This document shows positions 11,552 through 34,575 of a stretch of DNA of 64,000 nucleotides, one piece after another. Numbering within the stretch: position 1 is the stretch's first letter; every line of letters begins with the position of its first letter. Source of the DNA: Pseudomonas sp. R28(2017) (GTDB lineage: Bacteria; Pseudomonadota; Gammaproteobacteria; Pseudomonadales; Pseudomonadaceae); NCBI RefSeq assembly GCF_002112505.1, contig NZ_NEHW01000002.1, positions 186,001 to 250,000 on the forward strand, written 5' to 3'. The notes under the pieces were generated by a model. That model saw nothing but the letters and a program-made list of their open reading frames with translations. It was not told where the DNA came from and did no database searches. The translations under genes were made by a program, and so were the position numbers.

Positions 11552-14059
11552 TCAACTTTCCCGCAGCACCGCCAGCGGGCTGGCATTCAGTGCTCGCCGC
11601 GTTCCCAATACTCCCGCCCCACCCACCAGCAGCGCCCCGGCCACTGGCAACACCAGCAACCACGGATGTGGGCTCCACTGCAGGTCGAACGCATAGCGAT
11701 ACAGCACCAGGGTGATCAGCTCGCACCCCAGTGCCGACAAGGCCCCACTGGCCGCCCCCAGCAAACCGAACTCGATGCGCCGGGCCCTGACCAGCAAGGG
11801 GCGCGCCGCCCCCAGTGCGCGCAGCAAGGCGCCTTGGCGAATCCGCTCGTCCAATGTCGCCTGCAGCCCGGCGAACAACACCGCAAGCCCCGCCGCCAGC
11901 ACGAACAGCAACACATATTCGACCGCCAGCGTGACCTGGGCGAGGATGCTGCGCAGCTGTTCGAGCAAGGCATCCACCTGCAGGATGGTCACCGCAGGAA
12001 ACGCCCGGGACAGTGCCACCACGTCCAGGTCATGGCCCGGGGCCAGGTAGAAACTGGTCAGGTAGGTGGTGGGCAGCCCCTGCAGGGTGCCCGGCTGGAA
12101 GATCATGTAGAAGTTCGGCTGGAAGCTGTCCCAGTGCACACTGCGCAGGCTGCTGACCCGTGCCTGCCGCTGCTCGCCGCCGATGTCGAAGGTCAGCAGG
12201 TCGCCCAGTTGCAGCTTGAGGCTGGCTGCCAGCTCGGCCTCGACCGACACACCGGGGGTTTCATCGCCGCTTGGCAGCGCCTGCCACCAATTGCCCGCGC
12301 TCAGCGCATTGCCCTCAGGCAGGTCGGCGGCCCAGGTCAGGCTGAGGTCGCGTTGTACCGCCCGCTCGCCGGAAGAGTCCTTGCTGACGACCTGCCGCAC
12401 CGGTTGATCGTTGATCTGAATCAGCCGACCGGGTGTCACCGGGTAGAGCGGTGCCGAGCTGGCATTCACCTCGCGCAGGCGCTGGGCGAACGGTTCGCGG
12501 TCAGCGGGCAGGATATTCAGGGCAAAGTGGTTGGGTGCGTCCTTGGGCAGCTGTGCCTGCCAGGTGTCGAGCAGCTCTGCCCGCAGCAGTGCGACCAGGG
12601 CCATGGCCAGCAGGATCAGGCCGAAGGCCAGGGCTTGCCCGGCAGCCGCCATCGGGTGGCGCAGCAGCTGGCCCAGGCCCAGGCGCCAGGTCAGCGGTGC
12701 GCCGGCGAGCGCCTTGCGCAGGCTTTGCAGGCCGAGCAACAGCAGCCCGCCCAGCAGCAGCGCGGCGATCAGGCCACCGCCCAGCAGGGCGAAAGTCAGC
12801 AGCAGGTCAAGGCTCAGGCGCCACATGATCAGGCCCAGGGCGAGCAGGGCGGCGCCGTACACCAGCCAGCTGCTCGGTGGCACGGGCAGCAGATCACGGC
12901 GCAGCACCCGCAACGGTGGCACCTGGCCCAGCGCGGCGAGTGGCGGCAAGGCAAAGCCGGCCAGGGCCACCAGGCCGGTGGCGATGCCGGCCAGTGCCGG
13001 AAGCATGCCCCCGGCCGGCACCACGCTGGGCAGCAGGCCGTGCAGCAGGTGGAACAGGCCCAGTTGCGCGAGCCAGCCAAGCAGGGCACCGGCCAGGGCC
13101 GCGACCAGGCCGAGCATCGCCAGTTGCAGGCAATACAAGCCCAGCGCCTGGTGCCGCGACAGCCCCAGGCAGCGCAGCAAGGCGCTGGCGTCCAGGCGGC
13201 GCGCAGCGTAGCGGCTGGCCGAGAGCGCCACGGCCACGCCTGCCAGCAGCACTGCGACCAGGCTGGCCATGTTCAGGTAGCGCTCGGCTTTGCCCAGGGC
13301 GCCGCCGATCTGCCGGTTGCCGTCGCGGGTGTCGAGCAGGCGCTGGCTGGCAGCAAGGTTGTTTTCCACGGCCTGGCGATACTGCGCGAGGGCTTCGGCA
13401 TCGCCGCGCCACAGGTCACGGTAGGAAACCCGGCTGCCGGGCTGGATGACCCCGGTGGCCGGCAGGTCAGCCAGGTTCATCATCACGCGGGGCGTCAGGC
13501 TGTAGAAGTTGTTGGCGCGATCGGGTTCGTAGGTCAGCACACGGCTCATGCGCAAGGTTTTCATGCCGACGTCGATGCTGTCGCCGACCTTCAGCCCCAA
13601 GGCTGCCAGCAGGCGAGGTTCGACCCAGGCTTCCCCGGGTGCCGGGACACCCCCTGGGGTTTCTTCGCCATAGGGCGTGGCGGCACTGCGCACCTGGCCG
13701 CGCAACGGGTAGGCACTCTCGACCGCCTTGATGCTCGATAGCTGGATGCCCGCATCGCCACCGACCACGCTGGTGAATTCCACGACCCGGGCGTGCTGCA
13801 GCCCCAATGCCTGGCCGCTGCCGAGCTGCTCGTCACGGGCCGGCGCACTGCCTTGCAGTACCAGGTCGGCGCCGAGGAACTCACTGGCACGCAACTGCAT
13901 GGCGCCATTCAGGCGAGCGCCGAAATAGCCGATGGCGGTGCTCGCGGCGACCGCCACCAGCAGGGCAAAGAACAGCACGCGCACTTCGCTGGCGCGGAGG
14001 TCGCGCAGCAACTGGCGCAAGGCCAGGCCGCACAGGCGGGACAGCGGCATGTGCTTCAT
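11552..14059 (-). CDS. ABC transporter permease, YbbP/FtsX family
   Basis: An 835 aa integral membrane protein. It has an N-terminal TM helix (about residues 28-48), a large periplasmic MacB-like region, a block of helices around residues 255-490 rich in Leu/Ala/Gly, a second periplasmic region, and three C-terminal helices with the FtsX signature near EYVLLFVLAAGLAVLFAGLQ. Two FtsX cores in one chain are typical of YbbP. With the YbbA-like ATPase it is expected to form a mechanotransmission-type complex rather than a classical importer. The neighbouring tesA, transcribed divergently, is the partner gene in many proteobacteria. Its start overlaps the ATPase stop by one base (TGATG), implying translational coupling. 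Confidence 0.88.
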   Translation of the reverse strand: MKHMPLSRLCGLALRQLLRDLRASEVRVLFFALLVAVAASTAIGYFGARLNGAMQLRASEFLGADLVLQGSAPARDEQLGSGQALGLQHARVVEFTSVVGGDAGIQLSSIKAVESAYPLRGQVRSAATPYGEETPGGVPAPGEAWVEPRLLAALGLKVGDSIDVGMKTLRMSRVLTYEPDRANNFYSLTPRVMMNLADLPATGVIQPGSRVSYRDLWRGDAEALAQYRQAVENNLAASQRLLDTRDGNRQIGGALGKAERYLNMASLVAVLLAGVAVALSASRYAARRLDASALLRCLGLSRHQALGLYCLQLAMLGLVAALAGALLGWLAQLGLFHLLHGLLPSVVPAGGMLPALAGIATGLVALAGFALPPLAALGQVPPLRVLRRDLLPVPPSSWLVYGAALLALGLIMWRLSLDLLLTFALLGGGLIAALLLGGLLLLGLQSLRKALAGAPLTWRLGLGQLLRHPMAAAGQALAFGLILLAMALVALLRAELLDTWQAQLPKDAPNHFALNILPADREPFAQRLREVNASSAPLYPVTPGRLIQINDQPVRQVVSKDSSGERAVQRDLSLTWAADLPEGNALSAGNWWQALPSGDETPGVSVEAELAASLKLQLGDLLTFDIGGEQRQARVSSLRSVHWDSFQPNFYMIFQPGTLQGLPTTYLTSFYLAPGHDLDVVALSRAFPAVTILQVDALLEQLRSILAQVTLAVEYVLLFVLAAGLAVLFAGLQATLDERIRQGALLRALGAARPLLVRARRIEFGLLGAASGALSALGCELITLVLYRYAFDLQWSPHPWLLVLPVAGALLVGGAGVLGTRRALNASPLAVLRES

Positions 14060-14742
14060 CAGGCCTCCACCGGCGCCACCAGGCGGCCTGCTTCCAGGCG
14101 GATCTGGCGCCGGCAGCGGCGGGCCAGGCGCTCGTCATGGGTGACCAGTACCAGGGTGGTGCCGCGTTCCTTGTTCAACTCGAACAAAAGGTCGCTGATG
14201 CGCTCGCCGGTGTGGCTGTCGAGGTTGCCGGTGGGCTCGTCGGCGAACAGCACGGCAGGTTGTGCGGCGAAGGCGCGGGCAATGGCGACCCGTTGCTGCT
14301 CGCCACCGGAAAGCTGGCGTGGGGTGTGGGCCAGGCGCTTGCCCAGGCCAACCCGCTCAAGCAGGGTGCGGGCGTGCTCGCGGGCGTCGCGCCTGCCGTC
14401 GAGCTCCAACGGCAGCATCACGTTTTCCAGGGCGTTGAGGCTGTCGAGCAACTGGAACGACTGAAAGACGAAACCGACATGCTCGGCACGCACCCTGGCG
14501 CGCTGGTCTTCGTCCAGTGGGCCGAGGTCGTGCCCGGCGAGGATGACCTGGCCGGCGCTGGGCCGGTCGAGGCCGGCGAGCAGGCCGAGCAGGGTCGACT
14601 TGCCCGAGCCCGAGGCACCGACGATGGCCAGGCTGTCGCCCCGGGCAAGGTCGAGGGAGAGGGCATGCAGGATGGTCAGGTCACCTTCCGCGCTGGGGAC
14701 CACTTTGCTAAGGTGCTGAGCAACGAGAATGCTGGGGCCCAT
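14059..14742 (-). CDS. ABC transporter ATP-binding protein, YbbA family
   Basis: A 227 aa ATPase of the LolD/MacB-like class. Visible motifs are Walker A GASGSGKST (about residue 40), Q-loop FVFQSFQLLDSLNALENV, signature LSGGEQQRVAIARAFA, Walker B VLFADEPTGNLD and the H-loop LVLVTHDERLA. It pairs with the permease encoded immediately downstream. I chose ATG 14742, which yields MGPSILVAQHLSKVV. In-frame sequence further upstream would overlap tesA and lacks homology. This places its start codon 10 bp from the tesA start codon on the other strand, so the promoters of the two genes must overlap each other's coding sequence. Confidence 0.9.
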   Translation of the reverse strand: MGPSILVAQHLSKVVPSAEGDLTILHALSLDLARGDSLAIVGASGSGKSTLLGLLAGLDRPSAGQVILAGHDLGPLDEDQRARVRAEHVGFVFQSFQLLDSLNALENVMLPLELDGRRDAREHARTLLERVGLGKRLAHTPRQLSGGEQQRVAIARAFAAQPAVLFADEPTGNLDSHTGERISDLLFELNKERGTTLVLVTHDERLARRCRRQIRLEAGRLVAPVEA

Positions 14743-14752
14743 GGAGAATCCA

Positions 14753-15358
14753 ATGCGAGTGTGGTGGTTGAGTGCCGGTCTGGCCCTGTATTGCCTGGCC
14801 CAGAGCGCGGCGGCGGGAACACTGCTGGTTGTCGGCGATAGTATCAGCGCCGGCGCTGGCCTGGATATCCGCCAGGGTTGGGTCTCTCTGTTGCAGACCC
14901 GGCTCAAGGACGAAGGTTTCGACGATCAGGTGGTCAATGCGTCGATCAGTGGTGACACCAGTGCAGGTGGCCAGGCGCGGCTGCCGGCGCTGCTTGCAGC
15001 GCACAAGCCGAGCCTGGTGGTGCTGGAGCTTGGGGGCAACGACGGGCTGCGTGGGCAGCCTCCAGAGCAATTGCAACAAAATCTTGCCTCGATGATCGAG
15101 CATGCCCGCGAGGCGGGGGCCAAGGTGGTGCTGCTGGGCATGCGCCTGCCGCCGAACTATGGCGTGCGTTACAACACCGCCTTCGCCAAGGTCTATGCAC
15201 AGCTGGCAGAGCAGGAAAAGGTGGCGCTGGTACCGTTTTTCCTCGAAGGGGTGGGTGGCGTGCCGGGAATGATGCAGGCAGACGGCATCCATCCGGCGCA
15301 GGTTGCCCAGCAGCGCTTGCTGGAAAATGCCTGGCCGACGATAAAACCCTTGCTGTGA
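14753..15358 (+). CDS. tesA: Multifunctional acyl-CoA thioesterase I / protease I / lysophospholipase L1
   Basis: TesA is a periplasmic SGNH/GDSL hydrolase that cleaves acyl-CoA, lysophospholipid and ester substrates. The 201 aa product has a signal peptide (residues 1 to about 21, ending AQSAAAG), block I GDSIS with the nucleophile Ser30, the block III motif GGND, and the catalytic Asp/His in DGIHP near the C-terminus. Length matches the family (about 200 aa). ATG 14753 is preceded by GGAG 6 bases away. Upstream in-frame ATGs would disrupt the signal peptide. It is divergent from the YbbA/YbbP pair. Confidence 0.93.
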   Translation: MRVWWLSAGLALYCLAQSAAAGTLLVVGDSISAGAGLDIRQGWVSLLQTRLKDEGFDDQVVNASISGDTSAGGQARLPALLAAHKPSLVVLELGGNDGLRGQPPEQLQQNLASMIEHAREAGAKVVLLGMRLPPNYGVRYNTAFAKVYAQLAEQEKVALVPFFLEGVGGVPGMMQADGIHPAQVAQQRLLENAWPTIKPLL

Positions 15359-24316: not shown

Positions 24317-24408
24317 GGCCCATTCGCGGGCAAGCCCGCTCCCACAGGTATCGTACTTGCCTCAGGGTCTACGATCCCTGTGGGAGCGGGCTTGCCCGCG
24401 AATGGGCC
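24317..24408. repeat. REP inverted pair between pabB and the ATP-grasp gene
   Basis: Two perfect 32 bp arms (24317-24348 and 24377-24408) in opposite orientation, with a 28 bp spacer, contain the core GCGGGCAAGCCCGCTCCCAC. It is just beyond the stop of the ATP-grasp gene at 24418 and may protect the 3' end of that operon mRNA. Confidence 0.92.
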
Positions 24409-24417
24409 GGGACAGGC

Positions 24418-25398
24418 TTACTGCGGATGCACATGCCCGAACAGGTTCTGGGTCACTCGCACCCGCTGCTCGGCATCTTCGGTGATCCCTTCCTTGGCCA
24501 GCGCTTCGATATGCGCCTCGATGGCATGGGTGCGCTGGGTCAGGCCGGTGTCGTTGGCGATCTGGATATTCAGGCCGGGGCGGGCGTTGAGTTCGAGAAT
24601 CAGCGGTCCCTTGTCCTGATCCAGCACCATGTCCACGCCAATGTAGCCCAGCCCGCACAGCTCGTAGCAGCCGGCGGCGAGCTTCATGAAGCCGTCCCAG
24701 TTCGGCAGCTGCACGCCGTCCACCGCGTTGGTGGTGTCCGGGTGCTTGCTGATGATGTTGTTCAGCCAGGTGCCGCGCAGGGTCACACCGGTGGCCAGGT
24801 CCACGCCCACGCCAATGGCGCCCTGGTGCAGGTTGGCCTTGCCGCCGGACTGACGCGTCGGCAGGCGCAGCATGGCCATCACCGGGTAGCCCATCAGCAC
24901 GATGATGCGGATGTCCGGCACACCCTCGTAGCTGATGCTCTTGAAGATCTGGTCCGGGGTCACCCGGTACTCGATCAGCGCACGGTCGCGGTGGCCGCCG
25001 AGCGAGTACAGGCCGGTGAGGATGCTCGACACCTGGTGCTCGATTTCCTCATGGCTGATGATCTTGCCCGACACCGTGCGGTAGCGGTCCTCGAAACGGT
25101 CGGCGATCACCAGGATGCCGTCACCGCCAGCGCCCTGCGCCGGCTTGATGACGAAGTCGTTGCGCCCGCCGATGATCTCGTGAAGCTTTTCGATCTGCTT
25201 CTCGGTCTCGATGATGCCGTACATCTCCGGCACATGGATGCCGGCCGCCAGGGCGCGCTCCTTGGTGATGATCTTGTCGTCGACGATCGGGTACAGGTGG
25301 CGCTTGTTGTACTTCAACACGTAGTCCGCGTTGCGCCGGTTGATCCCCATGATGCCCCGGGCCTCCAGGGCTTTCCACGTCTTGATCAGGCCAAACAT
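24418..25398 (-). CDS. RimK-related ATP-grasp ligase (alpha-L-glutamate ligase-like)
   Basis: A 326 aa ATP-grasp enzyme predicted to form an amide bond between an amino acid (glutamate in RimK) and a carboxylate on a protein or peptide. Visible motifs are the nucleotide-binding loop FVIKPAQGAGGDGI (about residues 82-95) and the metal site LILELNARPGLNIQIAN (about 268-284). It lacks the N-terminal RimK domain pattern and matches the subgroup found with transglutaminase-like membrane proteins. It is the last gene of a tight three-gene operon; its ATG overlaps the previous stop by one base (TGATG). No signal peptide, so it acts in the cytoplasm. Substrate unknown. Confidence 0.88.
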   Translation of the reverse strand: MFGLIKTWKALEARGIMGINRRNADYVLKYNKRHLYPIVDDKIITKERALAAGIHVPEMYGIIETEKQIEKLHEIIGGRNDFVIKPAQGAGGDGILVIADRFEDRYRTVSGKIISHEEIEHQVSSILTGLYSLGGHRDRALIEYRVTPDQIFKSISYEGVPDIRIIVLMGYPVMAMLRLPTRQSGGKANLHQGAIGVGVDLATGVTLRGTWLNNIISKHPDTTNAVDGVQLPNWDGFMKLAAGCYELCGLGYIGVDMVLDQDKGPLILELNARPGLNIQIANDTGLTQRTHAIEAHIEALAKEGITEDAEQRVRVTQNLFGHVHPQ

Positions 25399-26933
25399 CA
25401 GGCGTCAGCCTTCTTCAGGAATGCCTTGAAACGCACGAGCTCGGTCAGGCGGTAGCCGCGGTAGCGGCCCATCGCCAGCATGAAGCCCACCAGGATCAGC
25501 AGCACGGCCGGGAAGGTGAAGACGAAGTACACCAGCTCCGGCACCATCATCAGCAGGTGCGCCAGGGAGGCGGCGAACAGGGTGCCGATCGCCACTTTCA
25601 TGGCATGGCCACCGCCGCGTTCTTCCCAGGTGATCGACAGGCGCTCGATGGTCATGGTCAGGATCACCATCGGGAACAGCGCCACCGACAGGCCGCGCTC
25701 CAGGCCCAGCTTGTGGCTGAACAGGCTGATGGCGGCGATCAAGACCACGACGAAGGTCAGCACCACCGACAGGCGCGGCAACATCTGCAGCTTCAGGTGT
25801 TCCAGGTACGAGCGTAGCGACAGGCCCAGTGCGGTGATCACGGTGAACAGCACGATACCGAAGCCCAGCTGGGTCTCGCGGAAGGCCAGGGCGATCAGTA
25901 CCGGGGTGAAGGTACCCAGGGTCTGGATGCCGATCAGGTTGCGCAGGATCAGGATCACCAGCACGCCGATCGGGATCATCACCATGATCATGAAGGTCTG
26001 CTGAGTCTGCAGCGGCAGGCCGTACAGCGAGTATTCGAGGAAGTCGGCGTCGGTGTTCTCGTCGGTCAGCTTGGCCAGGCGGATGGCGTTCATCTCGCTG
26101 TTGTTCATGCTGAAGGTGACGTTGGCCTTCTTGCCGCCATCGACGGTGATCAGGTTGTCGTCACCGGTCCACCACAGCAGGCGATCGGCCGGCAGGCCCT
26201 GCTCGCCGGTGTCCGGGTTGAAGTACAGCCAGTCGTTGCCGTTGAAGCTGCGCAGCCATAGCTCCGGGGTCTGCGGTGTATCGGCAACGAGGCGGATGGT
26301 GTGGACCTTTTCCATCGGCACGTGGGCGATCGACAGCAGCAGGTCGATGACCTGGGCCTTTTTCATCGGCGAGGTGTCGCCGGCCAGCAGCAGCTTGACG
26401 TTGTCGTCGTTGAGGTTGTTGACCCGCTTGATGGTCTCGCTGACGAAGGTCTCGACGTCGGCCGAGTGCTGGCGGATCGGTGCCATCAGGGCTTCGGCGG
26501 CGATCTTCTCCGGGCCGTCGATGGCCAGGCTGTCACGGAAGGTCGGGCCCTTGATGGCGGACTTTTCGTTGCTGTAGCGCTTGGTCAGCACCAGGCGGTA
26601 GTACAGGGTCTGGTTGCCGCTGACACGGCGCGCCGACCAGGTCACCTTGCGGTTGCCATCGGCGCGGTTGACGCTCACCCCATAATTGTTGGAGATGAAG
26701 CTCTCGTTGAGGCTGACGTAGTCACGGTTCAGCGGCGGCACGAACATCTGGATCTTGACCGGGTCCTTGGAGCTGGCGACGAACTCGACCTTGGCGTCGA
26801 TGTTCCACAGGTCGTCGGTTTCGTCTTCGGTCACCGGGATGCCGAGCACGAAGATCTGATAGGCCGTGACCGCCACGCCGAGCAGCACCAGCACGGTGAT
26901 CAGGACTTTCAGATGGAGGGTAAGAGAGCGCAT
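25398..26933 (-). CDS. Membrane protein with inactive transglutaminase-like domain and 7 TM helices
   Basis: The 511 aa product has one N-terminal TM helix (about residues 7-30), a periplasmic region ending in a transglutaminase-like fold (about 170-270), and a C-terminal block of about seven hydrophobic helices (313-500). The transglutaminase catalytic residues are gone. Where active enzymes have a GxC motif this protein has GDTS (185-188), and the expected His position reads NGNDW, while the last motif FNPDTGE is kept. This is the known inactive-transglutaminase/7TM family. It probably binds a peptide or tethers partners rather than catalysing. It is co-transcribed with a secreted protease upstream and an ATP-grasp ligase downstream. 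Confidence 0.87.
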   Translation of the reverse strand: MRSLTLHLKVLITVLVLLGVAVTAYQIFVLGIPVTEDETDDLWNIDAKVEFVASSKDPVKIQMFVPPLNRDYVSLNESFISNNYGVSVNRADGNRKVTWSARRVSGNQTLYYRLVLTKRYSNEKSAIKGPTFRDSLAIDGPEKIAAEALMAPIRQHSADVETFVSETIKRVNNLNDDNVKLLLAGDTSPMKKAQVIDLLLSIAHVPMEKVHTIRLVADTPQTPELWLRSFNGNDWLYFNPDTGEQGLPADRLLWWTGDDNLITVDGGKKANVTFSMNNSEMNAIRLAKLTDENTDADFLEYSLYGLPLQTQQTFMIMVMIPIGVLVILILRNLIGIQTLGTFTPVLIALAFRETQLGFGIVLFTVITALGLSLRSYLEHLKLQMLPRLSVVLTFVVVLIAAISLFSHKLGLERGLSVALFPMVILTMTIERLSITWEERGGGHAMKVAIGTLFAASLAHLLMMVPELVYFVFTFPAVLLILVGFMLAMGRYRGYRLTELVRFKAFLKKADA

Positions 26934-26938
26934 CGGGA

Positions 26939-27475
26939 TTACTCTGCTTTGGGAGCGTCGGTGGCACAGGCAGGTTTGCCGGCCGCGTATTTAAGGCTTG
27001 GGTCGACCAGCGCGTCGAAGTGCTTGAGCGCCTCGGAGCCGATCAGCAGCGGGAACTGGAAGGCGCTGCGGTCGGTGAGGTTGACTTCGATGGTGCGCCG
27101 GGCCTGGCCCATGCAGATTTCAAGTTCGATGACCGGGCGGGCGGTATAGGCCTTGCCGGATTCCGCATCATAGTCGCCGGCGCGGCGCTTGATCTTGCTC
27201 ACGCGCGCCAGGGGGCGTTCGATGGGGTGCGAATGGGCGGCGTCGATGGCCAGGTAGAAGCGCACCCAGCTTTCGCCGTTGCGCTTGAAACGCTTGATGT
27301 CACGGGCACTGAGCGACGCGGTCTTGGCCCCGGTGTCGAGCTTGGCGGCCACCTCCAGGTCAAGGTCGCCGAGCCGGGCGTATTCGTTCAGACCGTACAC
27401 GGTCTTGCCCGCCGCCTGGCCAAGGGCCGGCAGCAGGGTGAGGCATAACAGCAATAATACGGGTGTAAGTCTCAT
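26939..27475 (-). CDS. Secreted retropepsin-like protease (RimB/ATP-dependent zinc protease family)
   Basis: A 178 aa protein with a clean signal peptide (about residues 1-22, ending GQAAG) and an aspartic-protease-like core. KLDTGAKTASLSA carries the catalytic DTGA (Asp47), and FPLLIGSEALKHFDALVDP resembles the closing retropepsin segment. Such proteins are labelled ATP-dependent zinc protease or RimB-like in databases; the name is historical and I see no ATPase or zinc motif. It probably works as a dimer in the periplasm. As first gene of the operon, with a 5 bp gap to the next start, it may process the product of the ATP-grasp ligase. Function inferred. Confidence 0.82.
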   Translation of the reverse strand: MRLTPVLLLLCLTLLPALGQAAGKTVYGLNEYARLGDLDLEVAAKLDTGAKTASLSARDIKRFKRNGESWVRFYLAIDAAHSHPIERPLARVSKIKRRAGDYDAESGKAYTARPVIELEICMGQARRTIEVNLTDRSAFQFPLLIGSEALKHFDALVDPSLKYAAGKPACATDAPKAE

Positions 27476-27774: not shown

Positions 27775-28491
27775 ATGCTGGACCTCACCACCCCAAGCCC
27801 TGCCGAGACAGACGAAACGGAAACCTTGTCCGAGAATGTCTTCCGGCGCATCCAGGCGGCGATCGTCAAGGGCGACATCGCCCCGGGCAGCAAGATCTCC
27901 GAACCGGAGCTGGCGCGTACCTATGGCATCAGCCGCGGCCCGCTGCGCGAGGCCATCCACCGGCTGGAGGGGCAGCGCCTGCTGGTGCGCGTGCCGCATG
28001 TCGGCGCGCGGGTGGTGTCGCTCAACCACGCCGAGCTGATCGAACTGTACGAAATCCGCGAATCGCTGGAAGGCATGGCCTGCCGCCTGGCGGCCGAGCG
28101 CATGAGCCAGGCCGACATCGACGAGCTGCGCCGGGTGCTCGATACCCATGAGCGCGATGCCGCGTTCCAGGCCGGGCTTGGCTATTACCAGCAGGAAGGC
28201 GACTACGACTTCCACTACCGGATCATCCAGGGCAGCGGCAACCAGACCCTGGTCAAGATGCTCTGCGGCGAGCTGTATCAACTGGTGCGCATGTACCGCA
28301 TCCAGTTTTCCGCCGCGCCCAACCGGCCGCGCCAGGCCTTTGCCGAACACCACCGCATTCTCGATGCCATCGAAGGCCGTGACGGCGAACTGGCCGAACT
28401 CCTGATGCGCCGCCACATCGGCGCGTCCAAGCGCAACATCGAGCGTCACTACCTGGACGCCAACAACAACAGCCCACGAGGTGAGAAATGA
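27775..28491 (+). CDS. GntR-family (FCD) regulator of the methylcitrate cluster
   Basis: A 238 aa regulator with an N-terminal winged helix-turn-helix (about residues 20-85: [33 protein letters not shown]) and a C-terminal all-helical FCD effector domain. The FCD domain usually binds metal and a small organic acid; here histidines in [18 protein letters not shown] and [10 protein letters not shown] fit metal ligands. In pseudomonads such a GntR protein replaces the sigma-54 activator PrpR of enterics. It overlaps prpB by 4 bp (ATGA), so regulator and enzymes are co-transcribed. Likely effector: 2-methylcitrate or a relative (inference). Confidence 0.9.
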
Positions 28492-29378
28492 CTGTGAAGA
28501 GCACCCCCGGTCAGCGTTTCCGCGACGCCGTTGCCGCCGAACACCCCCTGCAAGTGGTCGGCGCGATCAATGCCAACCATGCGCTGCTGGCCAAGCGTGC
28601 CGGTTTCAAGGCCATCTACCTGTCCGGTGGCGGCGTCGCCGCCGGCTCCCTGGGCTTGCCAGACCTGGGTATCAGTGGCCTGGATGACGTGCTGACCGAT
28701 GTGCGCCGCATCACCGACGTCTGCGACGTGCCTTTGTTGGTGGATGTCGACACCGGCTTCGGCGCTTCGGCCTTCAACGTCGCCCGCACCGTGCGCTCGA
28801 TGTGCAAGTTCGGAGCCGCCGCCATCCACATCGAGGACCAGGTCGGCGCCAAGCGCTGCGGCCACCGCCCGAACAAGGAAATCGTCACCCAGCAGGAGAT
28901 GGTCGACCGTATCAAGGCTGCAGTGGATGCCCGCACCGATGACAGCTTCGTGATCATGGCGCGCACCGACGCCCTGGCGGTGGAAGGCCTGAACGCTGCC
29001 CTGGACCGCGCTGCCGCCTGCATCGAGGCTGGCGCCGACATGATCTTCCCGGAAGCCATCACCGAACTTTCGATGTACAAGACCTTCGCCGACCGGGTGC
29101 AGGCACCGATCCTGGCCAACATCACCGAGTTCGGCGCCACGCCGCTGTACACCACCGAAGAACTGGCCTCGGTCGACGTGTCGCTGGTGCTGTACCCGCT
29201 GTCGGCGTTCCGCGCCATGAACAAGGCGGCGGAGAACGTCTATACCGCATTGCGCCGCGACGGCACGCAGAAGAACGTGATCGACACCATGCAGACCCGC
29301 ATGGAGCTCTACGATGCCATTGGTTACCACGCCTTCGAGCAGAGCCTCGACGCGTTGTTTGCCCAGAAGAAGGGCTGA
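28488..29378 (+). CDS. prpB: 2-methylisocitrate lyase
   Basis: The last enzyme of the methylcitrate cycle, cleaving 2-methylisocitrate to pyruvate and succinate. The 296 aa product belongs to the isocitrate-lyase/PEP-mutase superfamily: [17 protein letters not shown], the Mg-binding region [15 protein letters not shown], the catalytic loop KRCGHRPNK with its cysteine, and [12 protein letters not shown] are all present. It starts at the ATG overlapping the regulator stop. A single REP unit follows before prpC. Confidence 0.95.
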
Positions 29379-29398
29379 AGGCTTTTGTTGGAGCGGCT

Positions 29399-29430
29399 GG
29401 CCTCTTCGCGGGCGCGTCCGCTCCCACAGG
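29399..29430. repeat. Single, diverged REP unit between prpB and prpC
   Basis: The unit reads CTCTTCGCGGGCGCGTCCGC followed by TCCCACAGG. The central GCCCGC is altered to GTCCGC relative to other copies. No inverted partner is seen. It lies inside the prp operon. Confidence 0.75.
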
Positions 29431-29495
29431 GGCCCCACAGGCAAACTGATTAGCCAGTTAGATTTCCATAACAAATTCAAGAAAGGAGAAACACC

Positions 29496-30623
29496 ATGGC
29501 CGAAGCAAAAGTACTCAGTGGCGCTGGCCTGCGTGGCCAGGTGGCCGGCCAGACCGCGCTGTCGACCGTGGGCCAGGCCGGTGCCGGCCTGACCTACCGT
29601 GGCTATGACGTCCGTGACCTGGCCGCCGGTGCCGAATTCGAAGAAGTCGCCTACCTGCTGCTGTACGGCGAGCTGCCGAGCAAGGCGGAACTGGCCGACT
29701 ACAAGCGCAAGCTCAAGGGCCTGCGTGACCTGCCGCAGGCATTGAAGGAAGTGCTCGAGCGCATCCCGCGCGATGCCCACCCTATGGATGTGATGCGCAC
29801 CGGTTGCTCGGTGCTGGGTACCCTGGAGCCGGAGCTGACCTTCGAAGCCCAGCGCGAGAAGACCGACCGCCTGCTGGCGCTGTTCCCGGCGGTGATGTGC
29901 TACTGGTACCGCTTCACCCACGACGGTGTGCGCATCGACTGCACCAGCGACGAGGACACCCTGGGCGGCCATTTCCTGCACCTGCTGCACGGCAAGAAAC
30001 CGAGCGAGCTGCACGTCAAGGTGATGAACGTGTCGCTGATCCTCTACGCCGAGCACGAGTTCAACGCTTCGACCTTCACCGCGCGGGTCTGCGCCTCGAC
30101 CCTGTCCGACCTGTATTCCTGCGTCACCGCTGCCATCGGCTCGCTGCGCGGCCCGCTGCACGGGGGCGCCAACGAAGCGGCGATGGAGCTGATCGAGCGC
30201 TTCCAGAGCCCCCAGGAAGCCACTGCCGAGCTGCTGCGCATGCTCGAGCGCAAGGACAAGATCATGGGCTTTGGCCACGCGATCTACAAAGAGTCCGACC
30301 CACGCAACGAGGTGATCAAGGGCTGGTCGAAGCAGCTTGCCGACCAGGTCGGTGACACGGTCCTGTACCCGGTTTCCGAAGCCATCGACAAGACCATGTG
30401 GGAGCAGAAGCGCCTGTTCCCCAACGCCGACTTCTACCATGCCTCGGCGTACCACTTCATGGGCATCCCGACCAAGCTGTTCACCCCGATCTTCGTCTGC
30501 TCGCGCCTGACCGGCTGGGCCGCGCACGTGTTCGAACAGCGCGCCAACAACCGCATCATCCGCCCGAGCGCCGAGTATGTCGGCGTCGAGCAGCGCCAGT
30601 TCGTGCCGATCGAACAGCGCTGA
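29496..30623 (+). CDS. prpC: 2-methylcitrate synthase
   Basis: It condenses propionyl-CoA and oxaloacetate to 2-methylcitrate. The 375 aa product is a short type II citrate-synthase-family enzyme: AGAGLTYRGYDVRDLA, HDGVRIDCTSDEDTLGGHFLHLLHG, GPLHGGANEAAMEL with the catalytic His, and GFGHAIYKESDPRNEVIKGWS with the second His and substrate Arg. Length and the GYDVRDL motif fit PrpC, not GltA. Start ATG follows AAAGGAGAA. A REP pair sits in the 160 bp gap before acnD. Confidence 0.95.
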   Translation: MAEAKVLSGAGLRGQVAGQTALSTVGQAGAGLTYRGYDVRDLAAGAEFEEVAYLLLYGELPSKAELADYKRKLKGLRDLPQALKEVLERIPRDAHPMDVMRTGCSVLGTLEPELTFEAQREKTDRLLALFPAVMCYWYRFTHDGVRIDCTSDEDTLGGHFLHLLHGKKPSELHVKVMNVSLILYAEHEFNASTFTARVCASTLSDLYSCVTAAIGSLRGPLHGGANEAAMELIERFQSPQEATAELLRMLERKDKIMGFGHAIYKESDPRNEVIKGWSKQLADQVGDTVLYPVSEAIDKTMWEQKRLFPNADFYHASAYHFMGIPTKLFTPIFVCSRLTGWAAHVFEQRANNRIIRPSAEYVGVEQRQFVPIEQR

Positions 30624-30650
30624 AATAGATAAAGAGAGGCAACCCGTTTC

Positions 30651-30743
30651 CCCTGTGGGAGCGGGCTTGCCCGCGAATGCGCCCGGCGGGGCAGCCCATG
30701 TGTACCTGCTGACGCATTCGCGGGCAAGCCCGCTCCCACAGGG
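30651..30743. repeat. REP inverted pair between prpC and acnD
   Basis: Two perfect 30 bp arms (30651-30680 and 30714-30743) with a 33 bp spacer contain the core GCGGGCTTGCCCGC and its complement. It lies inside the operon and can form a large hairpin in the mRNA. Confidence 0.92.
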
Positions 30744-30782
30744 ACGGTGGAACCTTCCGAACCCTGTGACCGAGCCCGAATG

Positions 30783-33371
30783 ATGAACACTGCATACCGC
30801 AAGAACCTGCCAGGCACCGCCCTGGACTACTTCGATGCCCGCGCCGCCGTCGAGGCCATCAAGCCCGGTGCCTACGACAGCCTGCCTTACACCTCCCGCG
30901 TACTGGCCGAAAACCTCGTGCGCCGCTGCGACCCGGCCACCCTCGACGCGTCGCTGGGCCAGCTGATCGAGCGCAAGCGCGACCTTGACTTCCCGTGGTT
31001 CCCGGCCCGCGTGGTGTGCCATGACATCCTTGGCCAGACCGCCCTGGTCGACCTCGCCGGCTTGCGCGATGCCATCGCCGACAAAGGCGGCGACCCGGCC
31101 CAGGTCAACCCGGTGGTGCCGGTGCAGCTGATCGTCGACCACTCCCTGGCCGTGGAGTGCGGTGGTTTCGACCCGCAGGCGTTCGAGAAGAACCGCGCCA
31201 TCGAAGACCGCCGTAACGAAGACCGCTTCCATTTCATCAACTGGACCAAGAAGGCGTTCAAGAACGTCGACGTGATCCAGCCTGGCAACGGCATCATGCA
31301 CCAGATCAACCTGGAGAAGATGTCGCCGGTCATCCACAGCGACCGCGGCGTGGCCTACCCGGATACCTGCGTCGGCACCGACAGCCACACCCCGCATGTC
31401 GACGCGCTGGGCGTGATCGCCATTGGTGTCGGTGGCCTGGAAGCCGAGAACGTCATGCTCGGCCGTGCCTCGTGGATGCGCCTGCCGGAAATCGTCGGCG
31501 TCGAGCTGACCGGCAAGCTGGCGCCGAACATCACCGCCACCGACCTGGTGCTGGCCCTCACCGAGTTCCTGCGCAAGCAGAAGGTCGTCGGCGCCTACCT
31601 CGAGTTCCATGGCGAAGGTGCGCGCGCGCTGACCCTGGGCGACCGCGCCACCATCTCCAACATGGCCCCGGAATACGGCGCCACCGCCGCGATGTTCGCC
31701 ATCGACCAGCAGACCATCGACTACCTCAAGCTGACCGGCCGTGATGACCAGCAGGTGCAGTTGGTGGAGACCTACGCCAAGGTCGCCGGCCTGTGGGCCG
31801 ACAGCCTGGCCAAGGCCCAATACGAGCGTACCCTGAGCTTCGACCTGTCGAGCGTGGTGCGCAACATGGCCGGGCCGTCCAACCCGCATGCCCGCGTCGC
31901 CACCAGCGACCTGGCGGCCAAGGGCATCGCCGGCGCCTGGGAAGACGTGCCGGGGCAGATGCCCGACGGCGCGGTGATCATTGCCGCCATCACCAGCTGC
32001 ACCAACACCAGCAACCCGCGTAACGTGATTGCCGCGGGCCTGCTGGCGCGCAATGCCAACAAGCTTGGCCTCAGCCGCAAGCCGTGGGTCAAGTCGTCGC
32101 TGGCACCCGGTTCCAAGGCCGTGCAGCTGTACCTGGAAGAGGCAGGGCTGGAAAAGGAACTGGAGCAACTGGGCTTCGGCATCGTCGCCTTCGCCTGCAC
32201 CACCTGCAACGGCATGTCCGGTGCGCTGGACCCGGTGATCCAGCAGGAAATCATCGACCGCGACCTGTACGCCACTGCCGTGCTGTCGGGTAACCGCAAC
32301 TTCGACGGGCGCATCCACCCTTACGCCAAGCAGGCGTTCCTGGCTTCGCCGCCGCTGGTGGTGGCCTACGCGATTGCCGGCACCATCCGCTTCGACATCG
32401 AAAAGGATGTGCTGGGCGTGGTCGATGGCAAGGAAATCCGCCTCAAGGACATCTGGCCAAGCGACGAGGAAATCGACGCGGTGGTGCGTGCGGCGGTCAA
32501 GCCGGAGCAGTTCCGCAAGGTCTATATCCCGATGTTCGCCATCGAGGAAGACCGTGGGCCGAAAGTCGCGCCGCTGTACGACTGGCGCCCGATGAGCACC
32601 TATATCCGCCGCCCGCCTTACTGGGAAGGTGCCCTGGCTGGCGAACGCACCCTGCGTGGCATGCGCCCGCTGGCGGTGCTGCCGGACAACATCACCACTG
32701 ACCACCTGTCGCCGTCCAACGCCATCCTGCTCGACAGCGCCGCGGGCGAATACCTGGCGAAGATGGGCCTGCCGGAAGAGGACTTCAACTCCTATGCCAC
32801 GCACCGCGGCGACCACCTGACCGCCCAGCGCGCCACCTTCGCCAACCCCAAGCTGTTCAACGAAATGGTGCGCAAGGATGACGGCAGCGTGAAGCAGGGC
32901 TCGCTGGCGCGCATCGAGCCGGAAGGCAAGGTGACGCGCATGTGGGAGGCCATCGAGACCTACATGGCGCGCAAGCAGCCGCTGATCATCGTCGCCGGTG
33001 GCGACTATGGCCAGGGTTCGTCCCGTGACTGGGCGGCCAAGGGGGTGCGCCTGGCCGGTGTCGAGGCGATCGTCGCCGAGGGCTTCGAGCGCATTCACCG
33101 CACCAACCTGGTGGGCATGGGCGTGTTGCCGCTGGAGTTCAAGCCGGGCACCGACCGTAAGACCCTGGGCCTGGACGGCAGCGAGACCTATGACGTGCTC
33201 GGCGAGCGCAAGCCACGGGCGACGCTGACCCTGGTGGTGACGCGACGCAATGGCGAGCGTGTCGAAGTGCCGGTGACCTGCCGCCTGGACACTGCCGAGG
33301 AAGTGTCGATCTATGAGGCGGGCGGGGTGCTGCAGCGCTTTGCCCAGGATTTCCTCGAAGCGACCGCTTGA
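30783..33371 (+). CDS. acnD: 2-methylcitrate dehydratase AcnD (Fe-S dependent aconitase family)
   Basis: AcnD dehydrates 2-methylcitrate to trans-2-methylaconitate, which PrpF then isomerises. The 862 aa product is an aconitase A-type protein: VDHSLAVEC, TDSHTPHVDALGVIAIGVGG, AAITSCTNTSNPRNVIAAG (first Fe-S Cys), FACTTCNGMSG (other two Cys), and the swivelling domain with GDYGQGSSRDWAAKGV. Identification as AcnD rather than AcnA rests on its place between prpC and prpF. ATG 30783 is preceded directly by another ATG; both are preceded by a weak site. Confidence 0.94.
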   Translation: MNTAYRKNLPGTALDYFDARAAVEAIKPGAYDSLPYTSRVLAENLVRRCDPATLDASLGQLIERKRDLDFPWFPARVVCHDILGQTALVDLAGLRDAIADKGGDPAQVNPVVPVQLIVDHSLAVECGGFDPQAFEKNRAIEDRRNEDRFHFINWTKKAFKNVDVIQPGNGIMHQINLEKMSPVIHSDRGVAYPDTCVGTDSHTPHVDALGVIAIGVGGLEAENVMLGRASWMRLPEIVGVELTGKLAPNITATDLVLALTEFLRKQKVVGAYLEFHGEGARALTLGDRATISNMAPEYGATAAMFAIDQQTIDYLKLTGRDDQQVQLVETYAKVAGLWADSLAKAQYERTLSFDLSSVVRNMAGPSNPHARVATSDLAAKGIAGAWEDVPGQMPDGAVIIAAITSCTNTSNPRNVIAAGLLARNANKLGLSRKPWVKSSLAPGSKAVQLYLEEAGLEKELEQLGFGIVAFACTTCNGMSGALDPVIQQEIIDRDLYATAVLSGNRNFDGRIHPYAKQAFLASPPLVVAYAIAGTIRFDIEKDVLGVVDGKEIRLKDIWPSDEEIDAVVRAAVKPEQFRKVYIPMFAIEEDRGPKVAPLYDWRPMSTYIRRPPYWEGALAGERTLRGMRPLAVLPDNITTDHLSPSNAILLDSAAGEYLAKMGLPEEDFNSYATHRGDHLTAQRATFANPKLFNEMVRKDDGSVKQGSLARIEPEGKVTRMWEAIETYMARKQPLIIVAGGDYGQGSSRDWAAKGVRLAGVEAIVAEGFERIHRTNLVGMGVLPLEFKPGTDRKTLGLDGSETYDVLGERKPRATLTLVVTRRNGERVEVPVTCRLDTAEEVSIYEAGGVLQRFAQDFLEATA

Positions 33372-33384
33372 ACAGGACGTGAAC

Positions 33385-34575
33385 ATGGCACATGTAGCGC
33401 AAGTGAAAATCCCCGCCACGTACATCCGTGGCGGCACCAGCAAGGGCGTGTTCTTCCGCCTGCAGGACTTGCCGGAAACGGCCCAGGTCCCAGGCCCGGC
33501 CCGCGACGCCTTGCTGTTGCGGGTCATCGGTAGCCCCGACCCTTATGCCAAGCAGATCGACGGCATGGGCGGCGCCACTTCGAGCACCAGCAAGACGGTC
33601 ATCCTGTCGAAGAGCATCAAGCCCGGGCACGATGTTGATTACCTGTTCGGCCAGGTCGCCATCGACAAGGCTTTCGTCGACTGGAGCGGCAACTGCGGCA
33701 ACCTGTCTGCGGCGGTCGGCTCGTTCGCCATCAGCAATGGCCTGGTCGACCCGGCGCGCATTCCGCGCAATGGCCTCGCCACCGTGCGCATCTGGCAGGC
33801 CAACATTGGCAAGACCATCATCGCCCATGTGCCGATCACCGAAGGTGAAGTGCAGGAAACCGGTGACTTCGAGCTCGATGGCGTGACTTTCCCAGCCGCC
33901 GAAGTGCAGCTGGAGTTCCTTGATCCGGCTGCCGACGAGGACGGCGACGGCGGGGCGATGTTCCCTACCGGCAACCTGGTGGATGATTTGGAGGTGCCGG
34001 GTGTCGGTACCTTCAAGGCGACCTTGATCAATGCTGGCATCCCGACCGTGTTCGTCAATGCCGCCGACATCGGTTACACCGGCACTGAACTGCAGGACGC
34101 GATCAACGGCGACCCTCAAGCGCTGCAACGTTTCGAGACCATTCGCGCCTACGGCGCCGTGCGCATGGGCCTGATCGAGCATGTCGACCAGGCTGCCGGG
34201 CGTCAGCACACGCCAAAGGTGGCTTTCGTTGCGCCGCCGAGCACCTACACTGCGTCCAGTGGCAAGGCGGTTGCGGCCGGTGACATCGACCTGCTGGTGC
34301 GTGCACTGTCCATGGGCAAGCTGCACCACGCGATGATGGGGACCGCAGCCGTGGCCATCGGCACTGCTGCAGCCATTCCGGGCACGCTGGTCAACCTCGC
34401 CGCTGGCGGGGGCGAGCGCAGTGCCGTGCGTTTCGGTCATCCGTCCGGCACCTTGCGGGTCGGGGCCGAGGCGCGCCAGGTGGATGGCGAGTGGACGGTG
34501 ACCAAGGCAATCATGAGCCGCAGTGCTCGCGTGCTGATGGAGGGCTGGGTGCGCGTACCTGGCGATAGCTTCTAA
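33385..34575 (+). CDS. prpF: 2-methylaconitate isomerase
   Basis: PrpF, a diaminopimelate-epimerase-like fold protein, converts trans-2-methylaconitate to the cis form so that aconitase can hydrate it. The 396 aa product has the family opening YIRGGTSKGVFFRLQDLP, GMGGATSSTSKTV, WSGNCGNLSAAVG with the conserved Cys, and the C-terminal FGHPSGTLRVG. It begins 13 bp after acnD, preceded by GGAC. The pair acnD-prpF is functionally inseparable in known organisms. A REP pair follows before prpD. Confidence 0.95.
   Translation: MAHVAQVKIPATYIRGGTSKGVFFRLQDLPETAQVPGPARDALLLRVIGSPDPYAKQIDGMGGATSSTSKTVILSKSIKPGHDVDYLFGQVAIDKAFVDWSGNCGNLSAAVGSFAISNGLVDPARIPRNGLATVRIWQANIGKTIIAHVPITEGEVQETGDFELDGVTFPAAEVQLEFLDPAADEDGDGGAMFPTGNLVDDLEVPGVGTFKATLINAGIPTVFVNAADIGYTGTELQDAINGDPQALQRFETIRAYGAVRMGLIEHVDQAAGRQHTPKVAFVAPPSTYTASSGKAVAAGDIDLLVRALSMGKLHHAMMGTAAVAIGTAAAIPGTLVNLAAGGGERSAVRFGHPSGTLRVGAEARQVDGEWTVTKAIMSRSARVLMEGWVRVPGDSF

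Follow-up and report, generated by a model that had tools for sequence, protein, structure and literature searches.

The rlo operon of the window and its products

The window analysed here, a 64,000-nucleotide stretch of the genome of Pseudomonas sp. R28(2017) (contig NZ_NEHW01000002.1), carries on its minus strand three consecutive genes encoding a secreted retropepsin-like peptidase (RloA), an inner-membrane protein with an inactive transglutaminase domain (RloB) and a RimK-like ATP-grasp ligase (RloC) (Table 1). The first two genes are separated by a gap of 5 bp and the last two overlap by 1 bp, as an initial annotation made from the sequence alone had reported, and the order rloA-rloB-rloC on one strand with tight packing is that by which the rlo operon is recognized. 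The trio is almost certainly orthologous to PA14_41690/41710/41730 of Pseudomonas aeruginosa. The initial annotation had put it forward as an undescribed system; rloA-rloB-rloC of P. aeruginosa were in fact named and studied by Lormand et al. in 2025 (PMC12239564, cited throughout from excerpts of the article), and NCBIfam has models named for RloA and RloB. The window operon is of the retropepsin type, ordinary for Pseudomonas. The new part of this work is a comparison across 128 RloB-like loci, in which RloB and RloC are the constant core and the partner is one of three: a retropepsin, a secreted protein with an HExxH motif, or a tetratricopeptide repeat (TPR) protein and/or an outer-membrane barrel.

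All three products are assigned by family models. RloA matches Zn_protease (PF05618, E 2.5e-45) and NF052262 (343.8 bits against a cut-off of 280); RloB matches Transglut_i_TM (PF14400, E 7e-48), 7TM_transglut (PF14402, E 4.6e-98) and NF052267 (1073.4 bits against 900); RloC matches ATPgrasp_ST (PF14397, E 1.3e-98) and TIGR02291, an alpha-L-glutamate ligase-like protein (564.8 bits against 314.2). The RimB model NF052261 gives the window RloA 80.7 bits, below its cut-off of 200. The genome contains one PF14402 gene and three PF05618 genes, namely RloA, RloA2 (297.9 bits against 250) and RimB (289.1 against 200), the last lying directly before RimK (472.8 against 331); the PF05618 search of the genome found no RloA3. 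Because of this separate RimB-RimK pair, the reading of the window trio as RimB-RimK was rejected.

The signal-peptide-like N-terminus and DTGA motif of RloA, both pointed out in the initial annotation, are present, together with Cys121 and Cys170. Its solved relatives are 9g58 (E 5.7e-87), 9g59 and 2pma. The eight residues that contact polyglutamate (polyE) in a model of P. aeruginosa RloA are all kept in the window protein one position lower, as K45, R91, K94, K96, R98, K108, R113 and R136.

The window RloB model, built from a 56-row alignment (mean pLDDT 90.1, pTM 0.75), predicts for the periplasmic domain a transglutaminase-like fold that matches 3isr_A (Z 15.3, rmsd 3.8 over 220 residues); for that of TgpA, Z is only 6.5. 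The initial annotation had described a seven-helix protein; seven C-terminal helices are indeed predicted, and the N-terminal helix that it overlooked brings the total to about eight. It was also right that the catalytic site is lost and that GDTS occupies residues 185-188. In an alignment that includes relatives with an intact triad, the Cys column falls just after that motif, on Pro189. The His column holds Glu224, and the reported replacement of His by Asn is mistaken because Asn239 occupies the Asp column. With Pro189, Glu224 and Asn239 in these columns, an active transglutaminase or transglutaminase-like Cys protease is ruled out for the window RloB; PF01841 does not match it at E values up to 0.1, whereas all five scanned relatives of the TPR/barrel type are matched.

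RloC bears the ExNxRPG motif, as the initial annotation had said, in the form ELNARPG, whose E and N we take to be metal-binding. With the genome's own RimK it shares K85, D162, R164, R178, N189-H191, D256, E269 and N271, which are invariant in 15 aligned sequences.

According to the excerpts on P. aeruginosa, whose retropepsins are RloA, RloA2, RloA3 and RimB, the three secreted proteases are redundant in hypo-osmotic tolerance, and RloA catalysis is needed in vivo, D48 being required (PMC12239564). In vitro, RloA cleaves polyE of eight or ten residues (8E and 10E) but not 6E or shorter, and crystal structures exist for RloA of P. fluorescens and RloA2 of P. aeruginosa (PMC12239564). Deletion of rloB, rloC or both fully rescues the low-salt growth of the triple protease mutant and rescues its other defects in part (PMC12239564). 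In P. aeruginosa the operon has effects on osmotic tolerance, on biofilm and cell shape, and on sensitivity to beta-lactams. In excerpts of two further articles, disruption of an rloB-type gene of Shewanella vesiculosa leads to more vesicles (PMC12096838), and PA1766, PA1767 and PA1768 turn up in a suppressor screen (PMC7314104).

Table 1. Positions of the rlo genes and of their notable features in the window
Feature	Position	Strand	Basis
rloA, secreted retropepsin-like aspartic peptidase, 178 amino acids (aa)	26939..27475	-	NF052262, PF05618, solved relatives
RloA hydrophobic signal-peptide-like N-terminus, about residues 1-21	27413..27475	-	hydropathy, residues 3-21
RloA catalytic motif DTGA, residues 47-50	27326..27337	-	sequence; equivalent of P. 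aeruginosa D48
rloB, inner-membrane protein, inactive transglutaminase and 7 transmembrane helices, 511 aa	25398..26933	-	NF052267, PF14400, PF14402, model
RloB N-terminal membrane helix, residues 6-28	26850..26918	-	model helix; hydropathy peak 14-32
RloB Pro189, column of transglutaminase Cys	26367..26369	-	alignment of 110 RloB-like proteins
RloB Glu224, column of transglutaminase His	26262..26264	-	alignment of 110 RloB-like proteins
RloB Asn239, column of transglutaminase Asp	26217..26219	-	alignment of 110 RloB-like proteins
RloB C-terminal helical membrane domain, residues 283-510	25404..26087	-	PF14402 at 260-505; model helices
rloC, cytoplasmic RimK-like ATP-grasp ligase, 326 aa	24418..25398	-	TIGR02291, PF14397, residues common with RimK
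RloC motif ELNARPG (ExNxRPG), residues 269-275	24574..24594	-	sequence; E269 and N271 invariant in 15 aligned sequences

Partners of the RloB-RloC core in 128 loci

The coupling of the trio was surveyed in 114 genomes drawn across the class, where RloB scored over its cut-off in 17, RloC in 13 and PF05618 in 51. An RloC-like gene adjoins RloB in 16 of the 17 RloB genomes (all but G055), three of these genes falling below the RloC cut-off, and none of the 13 RloC genes over it lies away from RloB. RloA adjoins RloB in 14 of the 17, the exceptions being G071, G101 and G055. The initial annotation had suggested a survey of this kind and held that its proposal would fail if the genes lay apart in most genomes; they lie together in most of the RloB genomes, and their coupling is more than chance. 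In a draw of 299 genomes across the phylum, PF14402 was found in 48, among them the window's own and 11 more from its family; among the genomes listed (231 without PF14402 were not), those lacking it begin only at the rank of order.

For the wider comparison, genome contigs were scanned with a mixed RloB alignment headed by divergent sequences like those of G101, G071 and G033, and the best 80 of 561 matches were joined by 38 loci from two draws; the neighbourhoods of these 80 + 38 loci were searched with profiles built for this analysis. Each locus was counted once: eight duplicate contigs were dropped, as was L120, a copy of L198. L141 was placed in the HExxH class by hand, and L079 and L080, which have a 7TM domain and no transglutaminase domain, were set apart. 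RloA stands beside the core in 70 of the 128 loci, a secreted HExxH protein in 14, a TPR protein and/or barrel (the export type) in 29 and none of these in 15, counts that do not give natural frequencies because the query favoured divergent members. The state of the transglutaminase site correlates with the partner, a correlation resting on few evolutionary events because a tree of RloB shows so few changes: Cys and His are intact in 0 of 70 RloA loci, 0 of 13 readable HExxH loci and 28 of 29 TPR/barrel loci, the other being truncated. Among the 13 partnerless loci that have a transglutaminase domain, four are intact, on contigs of 3.6 to 5.6 kb, eight are dead and one is unreadable; the two others have the 7TM domain alone. 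The triad is non-standard in six export-type rows because their Asp column holds Cys.

The partners exclude one another in the searches made. RloA never occurs together with a TPR protein or barrel (0/110 loci), the HExxH profile matches only its own two loci, L120 and L141, among 118, and the RloA profile matches none of the 20 loci of a draw from Myxococcota. Gene gaps, computed from the longest open reading frame (ORF) start, are within 60 bp for RloA-RloB in 64 of 69 cases, for RloB-RloC in 103/105, for RloC-TPR in 26/26 and for TPR-barrel in 16/18. RloB and RloC are fused in one protein in L116 and L117, the latter comprising a transglutaminase core, the 7TM domain and an ATP-grasp domain by Pfam (811 aa).

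The export type was seen in G101, in G071 and in a second copy in G033, where a TPR protein of about 630-670 aa, judged by eye to begin with a membrane helix, and a protein of about 395 aa that looks secreted come after a divergent RloB and RloC, and no RloA adjoins. The latter protein is predicted as a 16-strand barrel (pLDDT 85.6). Its model matches porins first, then AlgE (E 8.2e-8) and 4y25 (E 6.1e-7), whose title reads bacterial polysaccharide outer membrane secretin; TM-scores lie around 0.4-0.6, and these matches to a predicted fold speak for a barrel, not for its cargo. By titles and ranks, the layout extends over Gammaproteobacteria, Ghiorsea/Mariprofundaceae, Nitrospirota, titled Deltaproteobacteria, Spirochaetota, Krumholzibacteriota, Acidobacteriota, Zixibacteria and Bacteroidota. 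G033 carries both the rloABC type and the export type (L030, L044), which may stem from two organisms because this draft assembly has 6% contamination. In L028, L030, L094, L098, L107, L111 and L112 a related TPR-type protein of about 490-610 aa, in some cases with a lipoprotein-like start, lies directly upstream of the export-type RloB. A description of the layout was not found among the titles and abstract openings listed by searches of openly licensed literature; the 2009 amidoligase survey of Iyer et al. probably covers the trio and may cover its variants.

It is improbable that RloB and RloC serve polysaccharide or cell-wall assembly, with RloC adding amino acids to a sugar polymer. PF14397 is named a 'sugar-transfer associated ATP-grasp', the barrel resembles AlgE among many porins, and beta-lactam and shape phenotypes are known (PMC12239564), all of which would suit such a role. 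Plain polyE is nonetheless cleaved by RloA (PMC12239564), and no glycosyltransferase recurs near the TPR/barrel loci: none is among the families matched by two or more of 97 neighbour proteins, single matches having been seen only in part (25 of 110 families). They are 97 of the 99 proteins listed around loci other than the near copies L074, L076 and L077, ORFs truncated at contig ends being excluded. Polysaccharide biosynthesis near the export-type loci was rejected on this ground.

The HExxH layout was met in L141 (titled Deltaproteobacteria, ranked Myxococcota), with the order AstE/AspA-type gene, RloB, RloC and HExxH protein. In a draw of 188 Myxococcota genomes PF14402 occurs in 23, and 20 neighbourhoods were examined, G417, G563 and G405 (the last being L141) left out. 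The HExxH protein adjoins RloC in 13 of the 20, with the motif in all 13, and an AstE/AspA-type gene is present in 9 of these 13; over all HExxH loci, such a gene lies by the core in 10 of 14. Both proteins begin, in those cases with a clear start, with what looks by eye like a signal peptide. Five other loci of this draw have Cys and His intact, three of them with an adjoining TPR protein. One of four scanned HExxH proteins matches Peptidase_M61 (E 4.1e-5) and three match no peptidase family, so the peptidase label depends on the motif and this weak match. In five loci an ordinary rloABC operon likewise has an AstE/AspA-type gene adjoining it or close by (L041 10311-11738, L043 6348-7730, L036 8984-9724, L042 10536-11750 and L122 10443-11111), which rules it out as a marker of the HExxH class alone and makes its product a possible further member of the pathway; a sixth match, in L158, is weak and far. 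Beside the L141 cluster, at 12821-15079, a sodium:dicarboxylate symporter fused to a solute-binding domain suggests glutamate uptake; it was seen once and recurs in none of the 20 Myxococcota-draw stretches.

Several loci stand outside these layouts. In L080 (6963-9958) and L079 (7155-9922) the 7TM protein without transglutaminase domain is followed by RloC and preceded by a protein of about 315 aa, which in L080 is secreted and beta-rich by eye; this arrangement is a possible fourth layout. A full-frame search found a PF05618-like gene in L079, L081 and L082. That of L079 is read as part of a RimB-RimK pair and counted outside the RloA class, because about 2 kb separates it from the 7TM gene and a weak RloC-like frame stands next to it. 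L082 (6794-7543, genome G183) encodes a protein, Anbu-like by eye, that adjoins rloC with a weak transglutaminase-like match beside it, and L031 (7139-8761) a solitary RloB-like protein that has lost the Cys, has no RloC found adjoining and forms the longest branch of the tree.

A proposed role for RloA, RloB and RloC

We slightly favour a model in which the product of RloC is an acidic peptide polymer that reaches the periplasm by way of RloB and is cut by RloA. RloC, in the cytoplasm, would spend ATP on building an acidic peptide-type chain, most likely of alpha-linked glutamate. RloB, functionally tied to RloC and in some relatives part of the same polypeptide, would pass the chain through or across the inner membrane, and its dead transglutaminase domain may hold the chain in the periplasm, where RloA, with the RloA2 encoded elsewhere in the genome, would cut it and prevent its pile-up. 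Loss of the proteases would let the chain accumulate and leave the cells fragile at low salt; if RloB or RloC were missing, the chain would not arrive, and the cells would survive. The initial annotation had guessed at a ligase, a membrane carrier and periplasmic trimming, which is close to the published genetics and biochemistry of P. aeruginosa and is in part supported. Glutamate is the first candidate because of the published polyE preference. Since the constant core meets an aspartic peptidase, an HExxH protein together with a hydrolase of the AstE/AspA type, or else an export-like pore, delivery of a peptide-like chain to the periplasm is its simplest reading, and the comparison of loci leans to a free polymer over a protein as the product of RloC. 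We infer, then, that RloC makes the chain, that the chain is of glutamate and free, not on a protein, and that RloB translocates it.

Protein modification is a serious rival, if a less likely one: RloC would glutamylate one envelope protein, possibly RloB, RloB would hold or flip it, and RloA would take the tail off again in the periplasm, the part that RimB plays for cytoplasmic RpsF. RimK polyglutamylates RpsF and RimB trims it, as the introduction of the published study relates, and RpsF-8E, a RimB substrate, is also cut by RloA in vitro (PMC12239564). The spacing of the window operon, however, leaves no room for a substrate gene, and the outer-membrane barrel and TPR partner of the relatives are a better fit for a chain that is exported than for a single membrane protein. 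A precursor-peptide gene inside the window operon was rejected for the same want of room, the survey of ORFs elsewhere having covered those of 60 aa and above.

We give little credence to a third possibility, that RloB and RloC sense or regulate envelope stress, with the ATP-grasp protein acting in signalling and RloA cleaving part of RloB. It would accommodate the pleiotropic phenotypes and the control of the V. cholerae rloABC orthologues by VxrB, noted in the discussion of the same study (PMC12239564). RloC keeps the residues common with RimK, however, the partners that replace RloA are hydrolase-like proteins or an export-like pore, and the window RloB sequence has no long Glu run.

Several observations weigh against the delivery of a polymer by RloB and RloC. 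As excerpted, the published search found no genome-encoded substrate, neither polyglutamate nor another product was seen in vivo, and RloA2 and RloA3 are redundant with RloA yet encoded elsewhere (PMC12239564). RloA cleaves the RimB substrate in vitro too, so a preference for polyE may characterize the family more widely. RloC falls below the cut-off of the RimK family TIGR00768 (52.7 against 143.4), with 41.3 for PF08443, above the Pfam cut-off of 21. The 7TM domain of RloB, searched within the whole RloB model, has no clear transporter match, the best rows being AcrB halves (Z up to 7.0), a common arrangement. Eight dead-triad loci adjoin none of the three partners; two of them are at a contig edge and one lacks RloC, and the HExxH and AstE profiles match none of the eight. 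On a quick tree of 106 RloB rows, from which 4 of the 110 and the loci of the Myxococcota draw are absent, there is a single change in Cys intactness. RloA against TPR/barrel likewise changes once when the 12 rows with neither are disregarded; the TPR/barrel group needs three changes if those 12 are counted.

A broader reading of the polymer model is tentative, and we rate it somewhat short of even. RloB-RloC may be the core of an undescribed class of peptide-polymer machine, with chain synthesis by the ATP-grasp protein, passage to the periplasm by the 7TM protein and three exchangeable modules that would then act on the chain. One module is a retropepsin; another is a secreted HExxH peptidase, in most cases joined by a hydrolase of the AstE/AspA type; in the third, a TPR protein and 16-strand barrel would export the chain like the export arm for alginate or PNAG without the sugar synthase. 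The intact transglutaminase of the export type would cut or attach the chain, and where it is dead a separate peptidase would have taken over. If the core makes a peptide polymer, export-type relatives should place it outside the cell, where it could be collected and identified; if the broader reading is true, a TPR-barrel apparatus could export polymers that come from a source other than polysaccharide synthases.

Surroundings of the operon and closest known systems

No TPR protein or outer-membrane barrel lies beside the window operon, the nearest flanking genes scanned belonging to chorismate-binding, PAPS-reductase and GntR families. At 24320-24415, between rloC and the gene that follows, two copies of a GC-rich palindromic repeat face each other, which we take to resemble REP elements of Pseudomonas. 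A minus-strand ORF of 1692 codons at 28449-33527 looks like a high-GC artefact; it runs opposite plus-strand ORFs that presumably form a methylcitrate cluster.

The rlo operon of P. aeruginosa is the closest known system, agreeing with the window in gene order, in the three families, in a signal-peptide retropepsin, in an inactive transglutaminase with seven transmembrane helices and in an ATP-grasp protein. Both genomes also encode RloA2 and RimB-RimK; P. aeruginosa has RloA3, whereas none was found in the window's genome. RimB-RimK likewise pairs a retropepsin with a RimK-like ATP-grasp ligase, and the RimB substrate is cut by RloA in vitro. Unlike that pair, the window trio has an RloA with a signal-peptide-like N-terminus, an added membrane protein and an RloC below the RimK cut-off. 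The synthase-dependent exopolysaccharide export systems, such as alginate AlgK-AlgE, PgaA and BcsC, resemble only the distant rloB-rloC relatives, which share with them an inner-membrane core, a TPR protein and an outer-membrane barrel. The window lacks such a partner, and the export-type relatives differ from these systems in showing no recurrent nearby glycosyltransferase and carrying an ATP-grasp ligase instead.

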